Assembly (NCBI RefSeq): GCF_000756655.1
Contig: NZ_ARXU01000010.1
Coordinates: 1-64,000 of the forward strand
Origin: Alcanivorax jadensis T9
Lineage (GTDB): Bacteria; Pseudomonadota; Gammaproteobacteria; Pseudomonadales; Alcanivoracaceae
Reading direction: 5' to 3'
DNA length: 64,000 nucleotides
Part shown: in pieces, positions 4,291 through 11,385 of the stretch
How positions within the stretch are numbered: position 1 is the stretch's first letter
Layout of the letters: every line of letters starts with the position of its first letter
Notes under the pieces: model-generated
Database searches by the model: none
What the model saw: the letters and a program-made list of their open reading frames with translations, nothing else
Told to the model about the DNA's origin: nothing
Position numbers and translations under genes: made by a program

Positions 4291-5550
4291 TCAAGATGCC
4301 GGACGATAGTCCGGGCCGGCAGCCACCAGATGCACAGTACTGATGGCTCGCTCCAGGAACGCGCCCTCGCAGTAACACAGGTAGTAATCCCACATACGGA
4401 TAAAGCGCTCGTCAAAACCCAACTCACGGACTTTCGGCAAGTTCGCCAGAAAACGCTGACGCCAGTGATTCAGGGTCAGGGCGTAGTCATGGCCGATATC
4501 ATGAAGCTCCGTGGCGACCATGCGGGTATGCTCAGTCAGATGCTGGCACATCACCGACACGCTGGGCAGGAAACCGCCAGGGAAGATATAGCGTTTGATG
4601 AAATCGACCTGATTGCGGGCATGCTCGTAGCGCTGATCCGGCACCGTGATGGCCTGCAATACCAGTTTGCCATCCGGTTTTAGCCTTTCTCCGAGCACCT
4701 GAAAATAGCTCGGCAGAAACTCCGCCCCCACCGCTTCGATCATTTCCACGGAGACCACCCGATCATACTGACCGGTGAGCTCCCGATAATCCTCTTCCAG
4801 CACCGTCACTCTGCCCTCAAGCCCCTCAGCCTGAACCCTTTCACGGGCATGGCGAGCCTGCTCCCGGGAGATGGTGGTGGTGGTGACCTGAACACCATGA
4901 TGCTTGGCCGCATGAATGGCGAGACCGCCCCAGCCAGTGCCGATTTCCAGCAAGGTCATACCTGGTGCCAGTGACAGGTACTGGCAGATTTTTTCCAGCT
5001 TGTAGTCGGAAGCTTCTTCCAGCGGGGCATCCGGACGGGGAAACACCGCGCTGGAGTACATCATGCTGCGATCGAGAAACAGGCTGAAGAAATCGTTGCC
5101 CAAGTCATAGTGCGCAGAGATATTGCGGCGTGAGCCCTGCAAGGAATTACGGTTATAGCGGTGCAGCATTTTCAGGGCCGGCCTGGACAACAATGCCATG
5201 CCACCTTCCAGGGCTTTCATGGCATCTACGTTGGCAGCAAAGTAACGAATGACTGCCACCAGGTCCGGGCTATCCCAGCCTTTTTCCATGTAAGCTTCTG
5301 CCGCGCCCAGGGCACCGCCACTCATCATCATGGTATAGGTGCGCCAATCACGCAGGCGGATAATGGCCGCTTCGCCGTGGGAATGGCTGCCGAGCATGAC
5401 CTGATTGCCATCGGGTTCGTGAATACGAAGAGCGCCATGCGGCAGAGCGTTGAGCCGAGCCAGCACCAATTTGCGAGCCACGGACTGTGCCCAGCTGATT
5501 GTCACACTGTGTTGTAATGAGTTTGTTGTGGCTTTTTCGCCAGACAGCAT
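4291..5550 (-). CDS. Cyclopropane-fatty-acid-synthase-like SAM methyltransferase
   Basis: A 419-residue member of the CFA synthase family, which methylates unsaturated acyl chains of phospholipids. The SAM loop LLEIGTGWGG (about residue 198) and the substrate-side motif HYDLGNDFF are present. Several residues of E. coli Cfa are changed: SCAYW is SSAVF (active-site Cys lost), MFEHVG is MIEAVG, and LLHTIG is LVLQAIT (His lost). This suggests a related but different reaction, such as mid-chain methylation as proposed for UfaM/CfaA-type enzymes. The start at ATG 5550 has GGAG nine bases upstream, inside the end of the DUF1365 gene whose stop lies 4 bases before it. Last gene of the photolyase operon. 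Confidence 0.88.
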   Translation of the reverse strand: MLSGEKATTNSLQHSVTISWAQSVARKLVLARLNALPHGALRIHEPDGNQVMLGSHSHGEAAIIRLRDWRTYTMMMSGGALGAAEAYMEKGWDSPDLVAVIRYFAANVDAMKALEGGMALLSRPALKMLHRYNRNSLQGSRRNISAHYDLGNDFFSLFLDRSMMYSSAVFPRPDAPLEEASDYKLEKICQYLSLAPGMTLLEIGTGWGGLAIHAAKHHGVQVTTTTISREQARHARERVQAEGLEGRVTVLEEDYRELTGQYDRVVSVEMIEAVGAEFLPSYFQVLGERLKPDGKLVLQAITVPDQRYEHARNQVDFIKRYIFPGGFLPSVSVMCQHLTEHTRMVATELHDIGHDYALTLNHWRQRFLANLPKVRELGFDERFIRMWDYYLCYCEGAFLERAISTVHLVAAGPDYRPAS

Positions 5551-5554
5551 GCGG

Positions 5555-6322
5555 TCAATCTCCGTACCGATTGTTACTGTTATTGCCGGGGTGAGAATGA
5601 AATCTCGCCCCCTTGCGCCAGAGCCGGAATGCCTGCCAGTAAATGGCACGCATTGTCGCCACGCCCTGGGCACCGAAGCGGAAGATCACCGACCCCATGT
5701 TGCCTTTACCAGGGTCCTTAAGGTCCAGCTGCAGCCCAGCCACAAACACGACCTGATCTTCCTTTCTGTCTTCCAACATTAGGCGCAAACCGGGTAAGGC
5801 CACGTGAAGATCCCAGTGGTAATCCAGTGCCATAGGCAGAAAGGGCGACACATGAAAGGCCTTGGGGTGGCTCACCACCCAACCACCCTGTTCGTTTTTT
5901 TGCAGGTTCAGCGGATAGAAATGCCGCTCCCGCCAGGGGGTGTTCTGCACTTCCGCCAGCATACTGTCCGGCTGTTCGCTGTCCCCGGAGAAATGCAGGT
6001 AAAGCACCAGAGGATTGAACAGCGTGCCCAGGGTGCGCCACTGGCCCAACATCACTACCCTGCCCGCCTGCCAATCCAGGCCCAGCTCGACGGCTTTTTC
6101 ACGCACCTTGTCATTCAGGCTATCCGGGCGCGCATCCACAAAGTCGCTATCGCGAAACACCACCGGCCGCCAGCGCCGGCCCCAGGCCGGATGCCGGGCC
6201 AGCATGGCGTCTACTTCCGCCAGATCACACCAGACCATCCACAGGGGGTAATGAAACCCATGACGGAACGGCACCAGGCGCTGGTGCCATACCTTGCCCC
6301 TTGCTATCGCCTGGGTAATCAC
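5555..6322 (-). CDS. DUF1365 family protein
   Basis: A 255-residue DUF1365 protein; the N-terminus (GKVWHQRLVPFRHGFHYPLWM) is the family signature. Biochemical function is not established, but the family is almost always found between an FAD amine-oxidase-like gene and a CFA-like methyltransferase, as here, and in Rhodobacter this trio belongs to the singlet-oxygen response. A role in modifying unsaturated or methylated acyl chains is inferred. Its ATG overlaps the stop of the FAD enzyme gene (ATGA), so it is translationally coupled. No signal peptide or membrane segment is evident. Confidence 0.9.
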   Translation of the reverse strand: MITQAIARGKVWHQRLVPFRHGFHYPLWMVWCDLAEVDAMLARHPAWGRRWRPVVFRDSDFVDARPDSLNDKVREKAVELGLDWQAGRVVMLGQWRTLGTLFNPLVLYLHFSGDSEQPDSMLAEVQNTPWRERHFYPLNLQKNEQGGWVVSHPKAFHVSPFLPMALDYHWDLHVALPGLRLMLEDRKEDQVVFVAGLQLDLKDPGKGNMGSVIFRFGAQGVATMRAIYWQAFRLWRKGARFHSHPGNNSNNRYGD

Positions 6323-7572
6323 GGGGCAGACTCCGGGGACAATGCCCGCACCACGTTCAAGGCCGACACCACGCCGTCTTCATGGAAACCATTACGGCAC
6401 CAGGCGCCGGCATACCAGGTGCGCCTTTCGCCATTGCCCGCCAGTAGCGTTTCGCAGGCTACCACTGTATCCGGTGTAAACAGGGGATGGGCAAAATGAT
6501 AGCGGGCAATGATTTTTTCCGGATCAATTTTGTCCGTCGCATTCAGCGTCACGCAGAAAGTTTCCGGTGCCTGGATGCCCTGCAGAATATTCATGTCATA
6601 GGTAACCTGTACACGCTCTTGATCGTCATCGAAAAGCAGGGCATTCCAGCTTGACCAGACCCGCTGACGCCGTGGCAGCAAGCGAATATCCGTGTGCAAC
6701 ACCACCTCATTATCCTGATAACCGAGCCGTGACAAGCACTCTTTCTCGCGGCTATCCGGGTCGTCGAGCAGCGCCATGGTCTGATCGCTGTGGCAGGCAA
6801 GAATCAGCTGATCAAACTCTCGCTGTTCACCATTCACCGTGAGAGTGACACCCTGCTCATGGCGGCGTACCGCACTCACCGCTGAACGGGTGTGAAAACG
6901 GGCTGAACATTGCTCCACCAAGGGTTTCACATACTGATTGGAGCCCCCCGGCACCACATACCACTGGGGCCGGTTGGTGAGAGAAAGCAGGCCGTGATTC
7001 TGGAAAAAGCGGATAAAAAACTTTGCCGGGAACACTTCCATCTGCTCCAGGGAGCAGGACCAGATGGCACCCCCCATGGCGAGAATATAATCCCGACAGA
7101 AACGCTCCCCGTAACCATGCCGGCGCAGGTATTCACCCAGCGGCATTTCCCCCGCCTCAGTGTCCAGCAACCCGGGCGCATTGCGATTAAAACGCAGGAT
7201 GTCGCCGATAAAGCGCCAGTGGGATGGGCTCAGCAGATTGCGCTTCTGGGCAAAAATCCCGCCGAGGCCATCGCCGGAATATTCCAGTCCGTTGCGCTTA
7301 TCACTGACGGCAAACCCCATCGCCGTGGGCTGGCCCTGCAAACCCAGCTCATCCAGCAGGCGCAGATAGTTGGGGTAGGTGCGGTCATTGAACACAATGA
7401 AGCCCACATCAATGGCGTAGTCACCGTGCTCCCGGCTCACCGGCACGGTACAGGTGTGGCCACCGAGGTAGTCGTTGGCCTCGAAGACGTCCACCTGATG
7501 ATCTCTGGACAGATACCAGGCGGCGGTGAGGCCGCTGATACCGGCACCGACGATGGCAATACGCTGACTCAT
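6319..7572 (-). CDS. FAD-dependent amine oxidase-like oxidoreductase
   Basis: A 417-residue flavoprotein. The Rossmann motif GAGISG is at residues 9-14, followed by the GGHT motif of the amine oxidase/phytoene desaturase-like superfamily (about residue 38). Members linked to DUF1365 and CFA-like genes are candidates for fatty acyl chain oxidation or desaturation; the exact reaction here is inference. The start ATG overlaps the photolyase stop (ATGA) and its own end overlaps the DUF1365 start, so all three are made from one coupled message. No membrane segment apart from the N-terminal dinucleotide fold is seen. Confidence 0.88.
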   Translation of the reverse strand: MSQRIAIVGAGISGLTAAWYLSRDHQVDVFEANDYLGGHTCTVPVSREHGDYAIDVGFIVFNDRTYPNYLRLLDELGLQGQPTAMGFAVSDKRNGLEYSGDGLGGIFAQKRNLLSPSHWRFIGDILRFNRNAPGLLDTEAGEMPLGEYLRRHGYGERFCRDYILAMGGAIWSCSLEQMEVFPAKFFIRFFQNHGLLSLTNRPQWYVVPGGSNQYVKPLVEQCSARFHTRSAVSAVRRHEQGVTLTVNGEQREFDQLILACHSDQTMALLDDPDSREKECLSRLGYQDNEVVLHTDIRLLPRRQRVWSSWNALLFDDDQERVQVTYDMNILQGIQAPETFCVTLNATDKIDPEKIIARYHFAHPLFTPDTVVACETLLAGNGERRTWYAGAWCRNGFHEDGVVSALNVVRALSPESAP

Positions 7573-9029
7573 GCCTGTTCCTTTCTGCTAGTGGGACTGT
7601 GATTACTGTCGTCGTACTGGGCCTTGGCGGCCTTGAAAGCCTCGGTAACCCGCTCGCGCACACCGGCATGGGGCACCACCGGCGGCGGATAGTCAGGCGC
7701 CAGTAAAGGCTGTTTCCAGGGTTCGTGGACGGTCTTGTTATCCAGCTCGCGCAATGCCGGCACCCAGCGGGCAATAAACTCGCCCTGCGCATCGAAACGC
7801 TGGCTCTGGCGGACGGGGTTAAAGACGCGAAAATATGGCACCGCATCAGTACCGGAGGACGCACTCCACTGCCAGCCACCATTGTTGGCGGCAAAGTCTC
7901 CGTCAATCAGATGCTGCATGAAAAAACGCTCCCCCAGCCGCCAGTCCAGCCACAGATGTTTGCTGAGGAACATGGCCGTCACCATGCGCAGGCGATTATG
8001 CATCCAGCCAGTGGCCACCAATTGCCGCATGGCCGCGTCCACCAGCGGGTAGCCGGTGCGACCCTCGCACCAGGCCTGGAACAGGTCAGGGTCTTGGGAC
8101 CACTGCAGCAACTCGGTTTCCGGCCGAAACGCACCACCGCGACTGACCCGGGGGAAACGGGCCATGATCTGGCGATAAAAGTCCCGCCAGGCCAGCTCGC
8201 CGATCCAGCAAGCGGCCCCGTCCCGGGCGCCCGCATCGGCCATGGCCAGGGTGGCCGCCCGGTAGCAACTGGCCGGCGACAGCGTGCCCGCAGACAGCGC
8301 TGCTGACAGGGCACTGGTGGCCGGTTGCGAAGGGAAATCGCGATGCTTGCGATAACCGGCCAGATGATGCTCGGCAAAATCATCCAGTTGTTTCAGTGCC
8401 GCAGCCTCGCCCGGTTGCCAGTGACGGGTCAGGGAGTCAGGCACTGTCATCTTCTTGAGAGCACTTTCCACACCCCCTTTGCCCACAAAGCGGCCGTTAC
8501 CGGCGCCAGCTGCAGGCAATGCGGCCACAGGCTCGAAGTGGCTGTCGAGCCACACATCCCAGCGTTTTTTAAAGGCGCTGAAAACCGTGTATGGCGTCCC
8601 CTTACCGGTGTTCAGGGTCCGCGGGGGCACCAGCACGCTGTCATCAAAGCCGGTTATCTGTACCCCCAGCGGCTCTAGCGCCTGGGCCACCGCTCGGTCC
8701 CGGTTCAGTTCGTTAAGCGGGTACTCGCGGCTGCAGAAGAGACGTTCAATGCCGTGCTCCCCCACAAAGTCCGCCAGGAGCCCGGGCACGGCGGCAAAGT
8801 CGCCGGCGTCCAGCACATGCAGATCCACACCCCGCTCTGCCAGGGCATCGCCCAATTCGAGCAGGCTTTGCAGCACATACCAGCGACGCAGGGGCGCCAC
8901 ATCGTGATTGTCCCATTGCTGCTCACAGAGAAAATAGACGGCAATAACCGGTTCATCCCGCTCCAGCGCCTGCTGCAAGGCACGGTGTGAGTGGATACGT
9001 AGATCGTTGCGATACCAGAGCAGATTCAT
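7569..9029 (-). CDS. phrB: Class I deoxyribodipyrimidine photolyase
   Basis: Repairs cyclobutane pyrimidine dimers with blue light using FADH-. The 486-residue product starts with the photolyase alpha/beta domain (LLWYRNDLRIHSHRAL) and ends with the FAD-binding helical domain containing WRDFYRQIM, GWMHNRLRM and the conserved block NNGGWQWSASSGTDA. The central stretch TGKGTPYTVFSAFKKRW is typical of class I CPD enzymes with a folate antenna. Its ATG overlaps the stop of the MerR gene. In E. coli phr is paired with ybgA (DUF1722); here the DUF523/DUF1722 gene sits two genes upstream, supporting a shared operon. Confidence 0.95.
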   Translation of the reverse strand: MNLLWYRNDLRIHSHRALQQALERDEPVIAVYFLCEQQWDNHDVAPLRRWYVLQSLLELGDALAERGVDLHVLDAGDFAAVPGLLADFVGEHGIERLFCSREYPLNELNRDRAVAQALEPLGVQITGFDDSVLVPPRTLNTGKGTPYTVFSAFKKRWDVWLDSHFEPVAALPAAGAGNGRFVGKGGVESALKKMTVPDSLTRHWQPGEAAALKQLDDFAEHHLAGYRKHRDFPSQPATSALSAALSAGTLSPASCYRAATLAMADAGARDGAACWIGELAWRDFYRQIMARFPRVSRGGAFRPETELLQWSQDPDLFQAWCEGRTGYPLVDAAMRQLVATGWMHNRLRMVTAMFLSKHLWLDWRLGERFFMQHLIDGDFAANNGGWQWSASSGTDAVPYFRVFNPVRQSQRFDAQGEFIARWVPALRELDNKTVHEPWKQPLLAPDYPPPVVPHAGVRERVTEAFKAAKAQYDDSNHSPTSRKEQA

Positions 9030-9871
9030 AAAACGTCTCTATCCCCTTCCAGGGCCAACAATTGTTCCGCCACCGCCTGACGATCCCCGGTGAGCCGGGT
9101 CACAGAGGCCGGCGGCGCTTCCAGCAATCTGCCCCAGCAGGCCACGGGCCAGGGCTGGTTCTGTTGCGGCCAGAGCCGCTGGCGCTGGCCGGCAGTAGGC
9201 CAGCGATCAATCACCCAGAGCACTCCGCAGGGCTGACGGTCGGCCAGAAGCGCACTCAAGGCATCCACGTCCACATCCCGCTGCAAGCACCACAACGGTC
9301 GCTGCAGCACCATGGCCAGCTCCAGAGCCGGCAATACATCCCCCACTGGCACCAGTAGCCAGCCAAATTCCCGGCGCTTGGGTGACAGAGACAGGGAACG
9401 GGCGGCCCACTTCTGGGTCAGAACCGCTTCCAGCAAAGCCAGATGAGCAGACAGGGAGGGACTGCCGGCGAGCTGCTCGCGCAGGGGGTCGCTGAGTTCG
9501 CGAATGACCTGAGCATGGCTGTAATCGGCCAGGAGGCTGTTGAGCAGTTGCTCCAGACGCCGCCCATTCATGGTCTCCAGCGCCAGTAACGCATCCTGGC
9601 TTGCCTGGGCCCAGGGCACACCGTTATCCGCTGACAGCAGCGGCTCCTGCTCCCCTGACAGCAAGGACGCCACCTGGCTGATGGGCACGCCCTTTTCCAC
9701 CCAATGAACAATGCGCCGGATCTGGTCCACTTCGGCGGATCGGTAACGGCGATGACCCTTGGCGGTGCGCTCCGGCTTCAGCAGGCCATAGCGACGTTCC
9801 CAGGCACGCAGGGTGACCGGGTTGACGCCACACTGCTCACTGGCCTGCTGGATGGTCAGCACGTCGCTCAT
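9026..9871 (-). CDS. MerR-family regulator, LitR/CarH-like without a B12 motif
   Basis: A 281-residue regulator. Residues 5-75 form a MerR winged helix (TIQQASEQCGVNPVTLRAWE then RRYGLLKPERT and GHRRY). The C-terminal part aligns in layout with the helical and Rossmann domains of light-sensing LitR/CarH, but where they have the cobalamin motif (E/D-x-H-x-x-G) this protein reads GDVLPAL, so the histidine ligand is gone. Cobalamin-free relatives in Pseudomonas (PplR) work with a LOV protein; none is in this window. It sits inside the operon it probably controls, between the DUF523 and photolyase genes with ATGA overlaps at both ends, and the TGTACA boxes upstream are its likely operators. Confidence 0.82.
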   Translation of the reverse strand: MSDVLTIQQASEQCGVNPVTLRAWERRYGLLKPERTAKGHRRYRSAEVDQIRRIVHWVEKGVPISQVASLLSGEQEPLLSADNGVPWAQASQDALLALETMNGRRLEQLLNSLLADYSHAQVIRELSDPLREQLAGSPSLSAHLALLEAVLTQKWAARSLSLSPKRREFGWLLVPVGDVLPALELAMVLQRPLWCLQRDVDVDALSALLADRQPCGVLWVIDRWPTAGQRQRLWPQQNQPWPVACWGRLLEAPPASVTRLTGDRQAVAEQLLALEGDRDVL

Positions 9872-10821
9872 ACCCGGTTTCTCAGCCCCAGGTCATCCGG
9901 ATAAGGCGACAGATAACCCTGCTTTTCCAGATACGGCTGCGGCACCTTGCGCATGCCGCCACGCAGCAAGGTCATGGGCACAATCAGCGGCACTTCCTCG
10001 CGCAGGTAGGCCTCAATCTGTTCGTTGATCAACGCCCTGTCAGTATCGCTGAGACCCTCACGCAAAAAACCCGCCAGGTGTTGCAAGGTATTCACATGTG
10101 CACCTCGCGATACCCGCTTCTTCATGGCGACCATCAGGGCGTGGATGTATTCCTCGGCGATATCCTCCAGCGGACGACTTTTCAGGTCGCTGAGCAGAGG
10201 CCCAAGCTGGCGGTACGTTTTCTGGCAGTGGGCTAACAGCTGGAATTTGTGCCGACTGTGGAAGTCGATCAAACGCTGGGCGGTGAGCCCCTGCTCGCGG
10301 AGCTGGCACCAGTCGTCGTAGAGGAACACCCGCTCGATAAAGTTTTCCCGCAGGGTGTCGTCGTTGAGCCTGCCCTCTTCTTCCAGGGGCATGAGCGGAT
10401 AGTGGGTCTGCAGGGCTGCGGCAAACAGGCCACTGGCATCACGGTGCTGCACATTGCCATCGTCGTTATAGACGCGAATGCGCTCCATGCCGCAACTGGG
10501 GGATTTGGCCATCAGGATATAGCCCCGCAACGGCGCCAGAGAGGGCATGGTGCGGGTGATGAAATCCTGCATCAGGTCGGTATAGTCGCGACGCCCATCG
10601 GTGGTGATCATCCGCAGCTCTCCGCCTTGCTCGGCAAGATGCATGGCCTTGCGCGGCGCACTGAGGCCCGCCCCCATTTCCGGGCACAGGGAACGAAACT
10701 GGAAATAGCGGGACAAAACGCCAGTGCAATAGCGGGAATGCTTGTGCCCCTTGTCGTGACGCACTTCCAAGCCCAGCAAACAGGCGCTGATACCGACCGG
10801 GATTGTTGCGGAGCTGTTCAT
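9868..10821 (-). CDS. DUF523/DUF1722 fusion protein (YbgA-related)
   Basis: A 317-residue protein joining an N-terminal DUF523 (ISACLLGLEVRHDKGHK, residues about 8-155) and a C-terminal DUF1722 (about 185-300). E. coli YbgA has the DUF1722 part and lies beside phr, as this gene lies upstream of phrB. Conserved cysteines (ACLLG, RYC, SPSCGM) suggest a metal or Fe-S site, but function is unknown. I use ATG 10821; an earlier in-frame ATG at 10833 is too close to any ribosome site. First gene of the six-gene minus-strand operon; the TGTACA promoter lies immediately upstream. Confidence 0.85.
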   Translation of the reverse strand: MNSSATIPVGISACLLGLEVRHDKGHKHSRYCTGVLSRYFQFRSLCPEMGAGLSAPRKAMHLAEQGGELRMITTDGRRDYTDLMQDFITRTMPSLAPLRGYILMAKSPSCGMERIRVYNDDGNVQHRDASGLFAAALQTHYPLMPLEEEGRLNDDTLRENFIERVFLYDDWCQLREQGLTAQRLIDFHSRHKFQLLAHCQKTYRQLGPLLSDLKSRPLEDIAEEYIHALMVAMKKRVSRGAHVNTLQHLAGFLREGLSDTDRALINEQIEAYLREEVPLIVPMTLLRGGMRKVPQPYLEKQGYLSPYPDDLGLRNRV

Positions 10822-10836
10822 GTGCCACCCCATACC

Positions 10837-10883
10837 TGTACAAGAAATGATGTTTGTACAAGTTTAGGCCGATGTACAGTCAA
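10837..10883 (-). promoter_or_regulatory. MerR-type promoter with three TGTACA operators
   Basis: The palindrome TGTACA occurs at 10837-10842, 10855-10860 and 10873-10878, exactly 18 bp apart, so all three lie nearly two helical turns from each other on one DNA face. On the minus strand TTGACT (10878-10883) and TACAAA (10853-10858) make a -35/-10 pair with a 19-bp spacer, the long spacer typical of MerR promoters. One box overlaps the -35 and one the -10. Repression by the MerR protein encoded downstream, relieved by light or oxidative stress, is inferred. Confidence 0.7.
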
Positions 10884-10980
10884 CAACCCGTGAAACTCCC
10901 ATTGTCGCCATTTTCCTGCATCGGATCCTGAAGGTGCAATCTCGGGCAGCTATCCTTATACTTCTCAAAAAACTGACCAT

Positions 10981-11385
10981 ATGGACAGTGCAATGCGTAT
11001 TCTTGTGTGCGGCGGGCGGGATTTTTCCGATCAGGCATTACTGGCCCGCAGCCTGGCCCGGCTGCTACGTGACAACACCTTCAGTCTGCTGATCCACGGC
11101 AACGCCTCTGGCGCGGATCGACTGGCCAGCCAGTGGGCCCATGACAGCGGTGTAGACCAGGTCAGCTACCCGGCCAACTGGGTAGCCCATGGTCGCGCCG
11201 CCGGCCCCATGCGTAACCGGCGCATGCTCCACCATGGCCGCCCCCAGGCGATAGTGGCTTTTCCCGGCGGCCGTGGCACCGCCAATATGATTCAACTGGC
11301 CGAAGACGCCGGCCTGCCGGTCTGGCAGCCGGCCCTGGACGGCGAGGATGGCCTGCCCACGCCCCAGTGGCTGGTGGCACGCTGA
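10981..11385 (+). CDS. DUF2493 / SLOG-family protein
   Basis: A 134-residue single-domain protein with the start MRILVCGGRDF and the core IHGNASGADRLASQWA typical of DUF2493 (YspA-like SLOG fold, related to the lysine-decarboxylase-like and DprA nucleotide-binding folds). The conserved GxxxGAD and PGGRGT motifs probably bind a nucleotide or sugar-nucleotide ligand. Function unknown. It is divergent from the TGTACA-controlled operon, sharing its 160-bp control region, so it may belong to the same response. Start could be ATG 10981 or the in-frame ATG 10993; neither has a strong ribosome site. Confidence 0.72.
   Translation: MDSAMRILVCGGRDFSDQALLARSLARLLRDNTFSLLIHGNASGADRLASQWAHDSGVDQVSYPANWVAHGRAAGPMRNRRMLHHGRPQAIVAFPGGRGTANMIQLAEDAGLPVWQPALDGEDGLPTPQWLVAR

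Follow-up and report, generated by a model that had tools for sequence, protein, structure and literature searches.

TGTACA boxes as a probable self-control switch of a light-response and DNA-repair operon that encodes a class II LitR-like protein

Introduction

The closest described systems are the class II LitR proteins of Pseudomonas. PmlR2, the class II LitR of P. mendocina, gives a DNase I footprint that spans two TGTACA-N12-TGTACA sites, and its binding, as assayed by SPR, is lost when both hexamers of Site 2 are changed (PMC9758184). It represses its promoter in vitro, and an illuminated short-LOV protein relieves the repression; in gel shifts the illuminated LOV protein supershifted the PmlR2-DNA complex and did not release it, and the authors preferred the SPR result (PMC9758184). 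PmlR2 eluted at ~226 kDa, which the authors read as a hexamer, and the same paper quotes the consensus T(G/A)TACA-N12-TGTA(C/T)A for PplR1 of P. putida (PMC9758184). An operon containing PhrB, LitR and RudS under such control is also in print (PMC11417400). That paper describes class II LitR as B12-dependent, contrary to PMC9758184, and we have followed the latter.

Thermus CarH binds three repeats, a CarH tetramer using three of its DNA-binding domains to do so. Myxococcus CarA, which is B12-independent, binds as two cooperating dimers (PMC9304148).

Here we analyse an array of TGTACA boxes in a 64-kb stretch of DNA, the whole of which we call the window. Most likely they serve a bacterial operon for light response and DNA repair as its self-control switch, a kind of switch known from Pseudomonas; one additional box is confined to this bacterium and its near relatives.

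Results

The initial annotation of this DNA had reported three TGTACA palindromes at exact 18-bp steps, and we confirmed them at 10837, 10855 and 10873 (Table 1). Read on the minus strand, TTGACTGTACATCGGCCTAAACTTGTACAAACATCATTTCTTGTACAGGTATGGGGTGGCACATG precedes the RudS-type gene. TGTACA occurs 13 times in the 64-kb window compared with 7.0 +/- 2.5 times in shuffled sequences, a count of 13 being reached in 1 of 100 shuffles; with TGTACA as frequent as it is in the window, the expectation for 64 kb is about 5e-7 exact triples. When TGTACA-N12-TGTACA was sought with up to two mismatches, the window gave two matches, both in the array and both perfect. Two matches per window at this loose threshold are ordinary (27 of 100 shuffles); the perfection is the unusual part. 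Throughout the window's own genome (3,627,623 bases in 29 contigs) the exact pair occurred in the array only and the reversed control pattern did not occur, so the random scatter that the initial annotation had named as a refutation was not seen. Among sampled genomes, 2 of 390 from the order and 2 of 369 from the class had an exact triple, in both samples the window's own genome and one genome with an 18-bp tandem repeat; these samples left out G011 and G016, two clade relatives that also carry the exact triple. The published class II LitR consensus was matched by the array twice, in two overlapping perfect matches.

Table 1. Coordinates of the array, the promoter-like elements and the genes of the operon
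Feature	Coordinates	Strand	Remarks
Downstream TGTACA half-site	10837..10842	-	With 10855-10860 makes up the family-conserved presumed operator pair; pair score 41.9 bits
Middle TGTACA half-site	10855..10860	-	Common to both 18-bp pairs; at the expected -10 place, 17 bp from TTGACT
Third TGTACA, upstream	10873..10878	-	Overlaps the -35-like box by one base; half-site score 0.6 bits
-35-like TTGACT	10878..10883	-	TTGAC equidistant from the middle hexamer in 17/17 same-genus loci
Candidate -10 TACAAA (19-bp spacer), from the initial annotation	10853..10858	-	4/6 consensus bases, last position not T (by eye)
TTCAC	10890..10894	-	Exactly 11 bp upstream of TTGAC; place kept in 28/30 family promoters
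First operon gene, RudS-type; encodes a 2-thiouracil desulfurase domain and DUF1722	9868..10821	-	Alternative ATG at 10833
MerR-family class II LitR / MlrA-like regulator, 281 aa, presumed array binder	9026..9871	-	
Deoxyribodipyrimidine photolyase	7569..9029	-	
FAD-dependent amine-oxidase-type oxidoreductase	6319..7572	-	
DUF1365 protein	5555..6322	-	
CMAS-type fatty acid methyltransferase (cyclopropane/furan fatty acid synthase-like)	4291..5673	-	Mechanical ORF start, putative

A wider regulon in the window's own genome was considered and rejected: the degenerate consensus with up to two mismatches occurred at 146 places versus 138 for the reversed control, indicating that weak sites in this genome are background. 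One further exact match to the consensus, TATACA-N12-TGTATA (C17:25655, L036), lies between divergent ORFs that by eye resemble a TetR-type regulator and an efflux adaptor, and more likely belongs to the adjoining TetR-type regulator than to LitR. The one-mismatch loci L037-L042 revealed no common theme by eye.

Judged from gene order and domains, the array overlies the predicted promoter of an operon that includes both litR and a photolyase gene. On the minus strand the order is RudS-type, MerR, photolyase, FAD oxidoreductase, DUF1365 and CMAS-type methyltransferase; the MerR protein is the product of the second gene, and the sites do, as had been proposed, head its own operon. This protein has an N-terminal HTH (MerR_1, E 3.3e-17) and an MlrA_helical match (E 2.3e-05) that at 24.8 bits lies under the curated cut-off of 27.7; its best NCBIfam match is MlrA, at 95.7 bits far under the cut-off of 417. 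The CarH model matched residues 3-76 only, with 54 bits against a cut-off of 400, and matches to CarH structures were confined to the HTH. B12-binding_2 matched 13 of 36 homologues, the window protein not among them, and no other Pfam B12-binding domain was present among the 11 families that matched the 36 members at E 0.01. The C-terminal cobalamin-binding domain of class I LitR and CarH was not found, the CarH match being HTH-only. Of the earlier description as a LitR/CarH-like MerR protein, the MerR part is borne out by the MerR models, class II LitR is the likely assignment, and the likeness to CarH extends no further than the DNA-binding domain; the accompanying claim that the regulator lacks a cobalamin site agrees with the domain matches and with B12-free LitR as a published class. 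Identity to the 14 homologues of the other genus included in alignment A2 is only 25-31%, and the named records nearest to the MerR gene are Alcanivorax (three loci, 96, 87 and 84% identity). The word Alcanivorax is absent from the literature matches on LitR that were listed, a small part of all matches. Divergent from the operon, a YspA/SLOG-family gene (10981-11385, plus strand) borders the common intergenic region, and clade conservation is good around its start.

Conservation of the pair was examined in 46 genomes of the family. A MerR homologue (E <= 1e-20) was found in 37, and in 36 of these an exact pair lay within 1.2 kb (99-1130 bp) of the homologue match; the 37th (G001, L022) has the one-base variant TGTACA-N12-TGTATA. 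Three of the nine genomes without the homologue (G042, G044 and G045) also contain an exact pair. Flanking DNA was compared for 30 of the 38 matched loci (L006-L035, window included), and the pair conserved in these 30 family loci corresponds to 10837 plus 10855. Distances of up to 80 bp between exact TGTACA hexamers were 18 bp (32 times) and 36 bp (3 times), with no others, and CarH-type 11-bp repeats (nnnnTnnACAn) were accordingly rejected as the main organization. All 17 same-genus loci have TTGAC at one set distance upstream of the middle hexamer, and 11 of the 13 other-genus loci have TTCAT instead, one base closer. A 34-base matrix trained on 23 distinct canonical pairs, taken from 25 loci outside the window's clade, gave the downstream pair 41.9 bits, the training pairs themselves scoring 23.2-44.8, and the best position in the window outside the array scored 2.6 bits. 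The family half-site consensus is AAACTTGTACAA.

Some family genomes hold exact pairs at other genes. Five of the same genus (G004, G006, G010, G012 and G014; L124-L128) have a second exact pair immediately upstream of a gene for an OmpR-type response regulator, and this gene in turn follows, in line, one for an AraC/DJ-1-type regulator (by Pfam, L128 only); this pair is likely a second LitR target, with no exact counterpart in the window's genome. One of the two pairs of G045, a genome without this LitR, is directly before a Phd/YefM antitoxin gene (L131, G045:C19:4241). G024, G025 and G027 have a further exact pair, which in L129, the case looked at, lies where a long ORF starts; another is at G009:C33:136545.

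For comparison we drew on 40 genomes from a second genus of the order, taken from its layout to be Pseudomonas, and used the 30 loci that matched best. At least one pair with no more than one mismatch was present in 28 of these 30 Pseudomonas-like loci, the exceptions being L092 and L094, and two such pairs were present in 20. The two pairs were 49-51 bp apart in 18 loci and 46 bp apart in two, which resembles the arrangement of Site 1 and Site 2 in the literature. With looser boxes the distance of 18 bp remained dominant (48 cases, against two of 19 and one of 20).

The initial annotation had treated the array as a unit of three sites. The three exact sites stand, but the unit conserved in the family is the pair, and only five of the loci have the third hexamer. 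Three of the 30 promoters (window, L007 and L010) carry it exactly; it reads TGTACT in L008 and L009 and is unrecognisable at the corresponding place in the other 25; the five loci make up one clade of the protein tree (support 100/99). The upstream pair scored 16.6 bits in the window, 12.5-23.9 in the clade and at most 0.8 at the same place in the 25 other loci, and nearly all of the 16.6 bits came from the shared middle box. Scored alone, the window's third half-site had 0.6 bits and those of the clade ranged from -6.8 to 4.6, compared with 8.3-25.8 for the training halves and -40.8 to -20.7 at the third-box place in the other 25 loci. Because its flanks misfit, the third box lies under every trained half-site, though it is far more TGTACA-like than the same place in its relatives; by exposing these weak flanks, the split of the pair score into half-sites weakens the case for the third hexamer, favours a chance origin and counts against a cooperative, a MerR-activated or a two-register operator. 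Across the five clade sequences 69 of 126 upstream columns are invariant and conservation of the third box is not clearly above that of neighbouring DNA, so its conservation is no proof of selection. When two mismatches in total were allowed over the three boxes, three more in-phase triples appeared among 60 loci scanned, with the looser third box downstream at the start codon in L028 and L033 and upstream in L088, showing that looser triples do occur.

From its sequence we regard the third hexamer as a clade-specific box, weak by its flanks, that may be without function. It may extend occupancy to the -35 or be there by chance, and chance was rated slightly more likely. A somewhat favoured account is that TGTACA directly after TTGAC arose in the clade ancestor without function and that the conserved pair alone is the operator. 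The hexamer is imperfect in two of the five clade members, none of the five has flanks that fit a half-site, and it was not seen in the other 25 of 30 family promoters, all of which suits such an origin; its exact 18-bp phase does not, nor does the retention of TGTAC in all five members despite upstream DNA identities of 62-88%. Much less probable is the cooperative operator of the initial annotation, in which a LitR oligomer would occupy all three hexamers at once, like the CarH tetramer, for steeper repression. The same phase, the three exact and two one-mismatch copies in the clade, and half-site scores far above those of the other 25 loci would be expected of such an operator, and both the ~226-kDa elution of PmlR2 and the two cooperating dimers of CarA leave room for a multi-site complex, as the three repeats under Thermus CarH also suggest. 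Opposed to it are the low score of the window's third half-site relative to every training half, an upstream-pair score that is mostly middle box, the similar conservation of neighbouring DNA, and the CarH repeat step of 11 bp, not 18. It is quite improbable that in the clade a site for one repressor dimer became an operator with two registers, with three half-sites and a common middle box. If it did, a LitR dimer could lie over the -10 and start, for repression, or in the -35/-10 spacer, the position of a MerR activator, or an oligomer could lie on all three, and the result would be a sharper or two-way switch in an organism in which no LOV or BLUF partner is recognised. A role for the third hexamer is speculative; the hexamer offers a small natural experiment on how an operator of the MerR family might come to have one more site.

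The initial annotation had also placed a MerR-type promoter here, from a TTGACT and a TACAAA 19 bp apart. The boxes and their distance are as described, but the MerR-type promoter is only one reading; the same TTGACT also has the middle TGTACA at a distance of 17 bp. A sigma-70 scan with 16-18-bp spacers found no promoter at the array, and the -10 is poor; the core promoter is weak, and the 19-bp MerR-type spacer is putative. The pair found throughout the family sits downstream of the TTGACT-N19-TACAAA spacer, not inside it. We consider it quite improbable that a dimer on the upstream pair (10855-10878) would untwist this spacer and activate transcription. The 19-bp spacing and the result of the sigma-70 scan are what such a promoter would give, but only the five-member clade has a pair in the spacer, so the wider family cannot be activated in this way; in addition, the -35-like box of most other-genus loci is the displaced TTCAT, and the mapped class II LitR promoter is TTGACT-N16-TATGAT and is repressed in vitro (PMC9758184).

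Further upstream, TTCAC and TTGAC form a pair 11 bp apart, the window copies of which are without full TnnACA. In loci whose spacing to TGTACA differs by one base, TTCAC (10890-10894) and TTGAC/TTCAT (10879-10883) have shifted together. The two may be the direct repeat of another regulator or degenerate CarH-like boxes. As a genome-wide regulator site TTCAC-N6-TTGAC was rejected, since CTTCAC-N6-TTGAC was not above the reversed control in 46 genomes; this search gave 0 in the window because the window reads TTTCAC.

Possible light sensors were sought in the same genomes. The window's own genome gave no match to the BLUF domain and none to two LOV-motif patterns (a strict motif), and its PAS_9 matches were only in frames of at least 405 aa; the light step is thus left without a known sensor, though with a strict LOV motif and a single PAS model a divergent sensor could be missed. 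BLUF was found in 9 of 46 family genomes, five of them with a LitR homologue, so 32 of the 37 LitR-carrying genomes had no BLUF match. A looser LOV pattern matched in 8 of 46 genomes (nine places) versus 6 of 46 for the reversed control; the nine matches lay in frames of 25-190 aa that by eye are unlike LOV domains, and with a similar control they were treated as chance. With the motif pattern used, none of the 37 LitR-carrying genomes gave a convincing LOV match. As the LitR homologue is widespread (37 of 46) whereas BLUF is rare and LOV not convincingly present, most of these LitR proteins are without a recognised light-sensing partner.

Discussion

We consider it highly probable that the array is an operator through which the RudS-litR-photolyase-lipid operon is repressed by its own class II LitR/MlrA-like protein (9026-9871). 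What the sequences show is the sites themselves, their conservation beside litR, the lack of a second exact pair elsewhere in the genome, and a third box restricted to the clade. By analogy with the published relatives, a LitR dimer would bind TGTACA-N12-TGTACA at 10837-10860 and cover the presumed -10 and transcript start, blocking RNA polymerase; since the operon encodes this repressor, it would be autorepressed. A signal, on the same analogy blue light acting via a partner protein, would free LitR from the operator. The third hexamer (10873, beside the -35) would provide a second, much weaker 18-bp register, used or not. Resemblance of the operon to a published light-inducible operon supports the proposal; counting against it are the poor -10, the 25-31% identity to the 14 homologues of the other genus, the MlrA_helical match under cut-off, the failure to find a BLUF domain or LOV motif in the window's own genome, and the supershift of PmlR2-DNA by illuminated LOV protein in the published gel shift. 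The feature picked out by the initial annotation is real, statistically strong and tied to the right protein, and the interpretation given to it is partly supported.

It is very improbable that a different TGTACA reader, for example a YefM-type antitoxin, occupies the boxes: YefM and Axe operators have TGTACA cores (PMC7730913) and the pair of L131 precedes a Phd/YefM gene in one family genome, but the published YefM cores are 12 bp centre to centre (PMC7730913), against 18 bp here, a spacing on which we rejected such binding, and 36 of 37 genomes have the pair near litR.

With repression by LitR as the preferred reading, the class II LitR operator is extended from Pseudomonas to the window's family, whose nearest named relatives are Alcanivorax. 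The extended half-site consensus, together with the near-perfect link to litR, makes the targets of such proteins readable from sequence. That the 37 LitR-carrying family genomes are mostly without recognised BLUF or LOV raises the question of how LitR is gated; the operon's own photolyase is conceivable as another sensor candidate. Earlier work had described this type of operator, its spacing and a B12-free regulator, and what is new is the clade-specific third TGTACA, the function of which is doubtful.

MlrA is an activator. The E. coli MlrA site at csgD, AAAATTGTACA(12N)TGTACAATTTT, has the same TGTACA-N12-TGTACA, with A-rich outer flanks; it is quoted well upstream of the gene, in contrast to the window site over the predicted promoter (PMC9662190), and a variant of it is quoted in PMC3509220. 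E. coli BluR at ycgZ is, like the regulator proposed here, a MerR-family light-response repressor, with GTACA half-sites over the -35 and spacer; it is antagonised by the BLUF protein BluF (PMC3509220), whereas no BLUF domain was found in the window's own genome. CarH and CarA resemble the proposed system in having several DNA-binding domains and repeated TnnACA boxes over the -35, but their operators are 11-bp direct repeats, compared with the 18-bp step of the window, and CarH needs adenosylcobalamin (PMC9304148).

The nearest likeness is to PmlR2 at P6650, which has the same hexamer and 18-bp step and a half-site beside a TTGACT -35 (PMC9758184). The operon there is of the same kind, with photolyase, FAD oxidoreductase and fatty acid synthase (PMC9758184), and with RudS according to PMC11417400. 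P. mendocina has a short LOV partner, whereas none was found in the window's genome with the two LOV-motif patterns. The Pseudomonas-like promoters have two separate pairs, 46-51 bp apart in 20 of 30 loci, and the window instead has one conserved pair and a third, in-phase hexamer. TGTACA follows directly after TTGACT in many Pseudomonas-like loci and directly after TTGAC in the window; both thus have a half-site beside the -35, but the one in the window keeps phase with the main pair.
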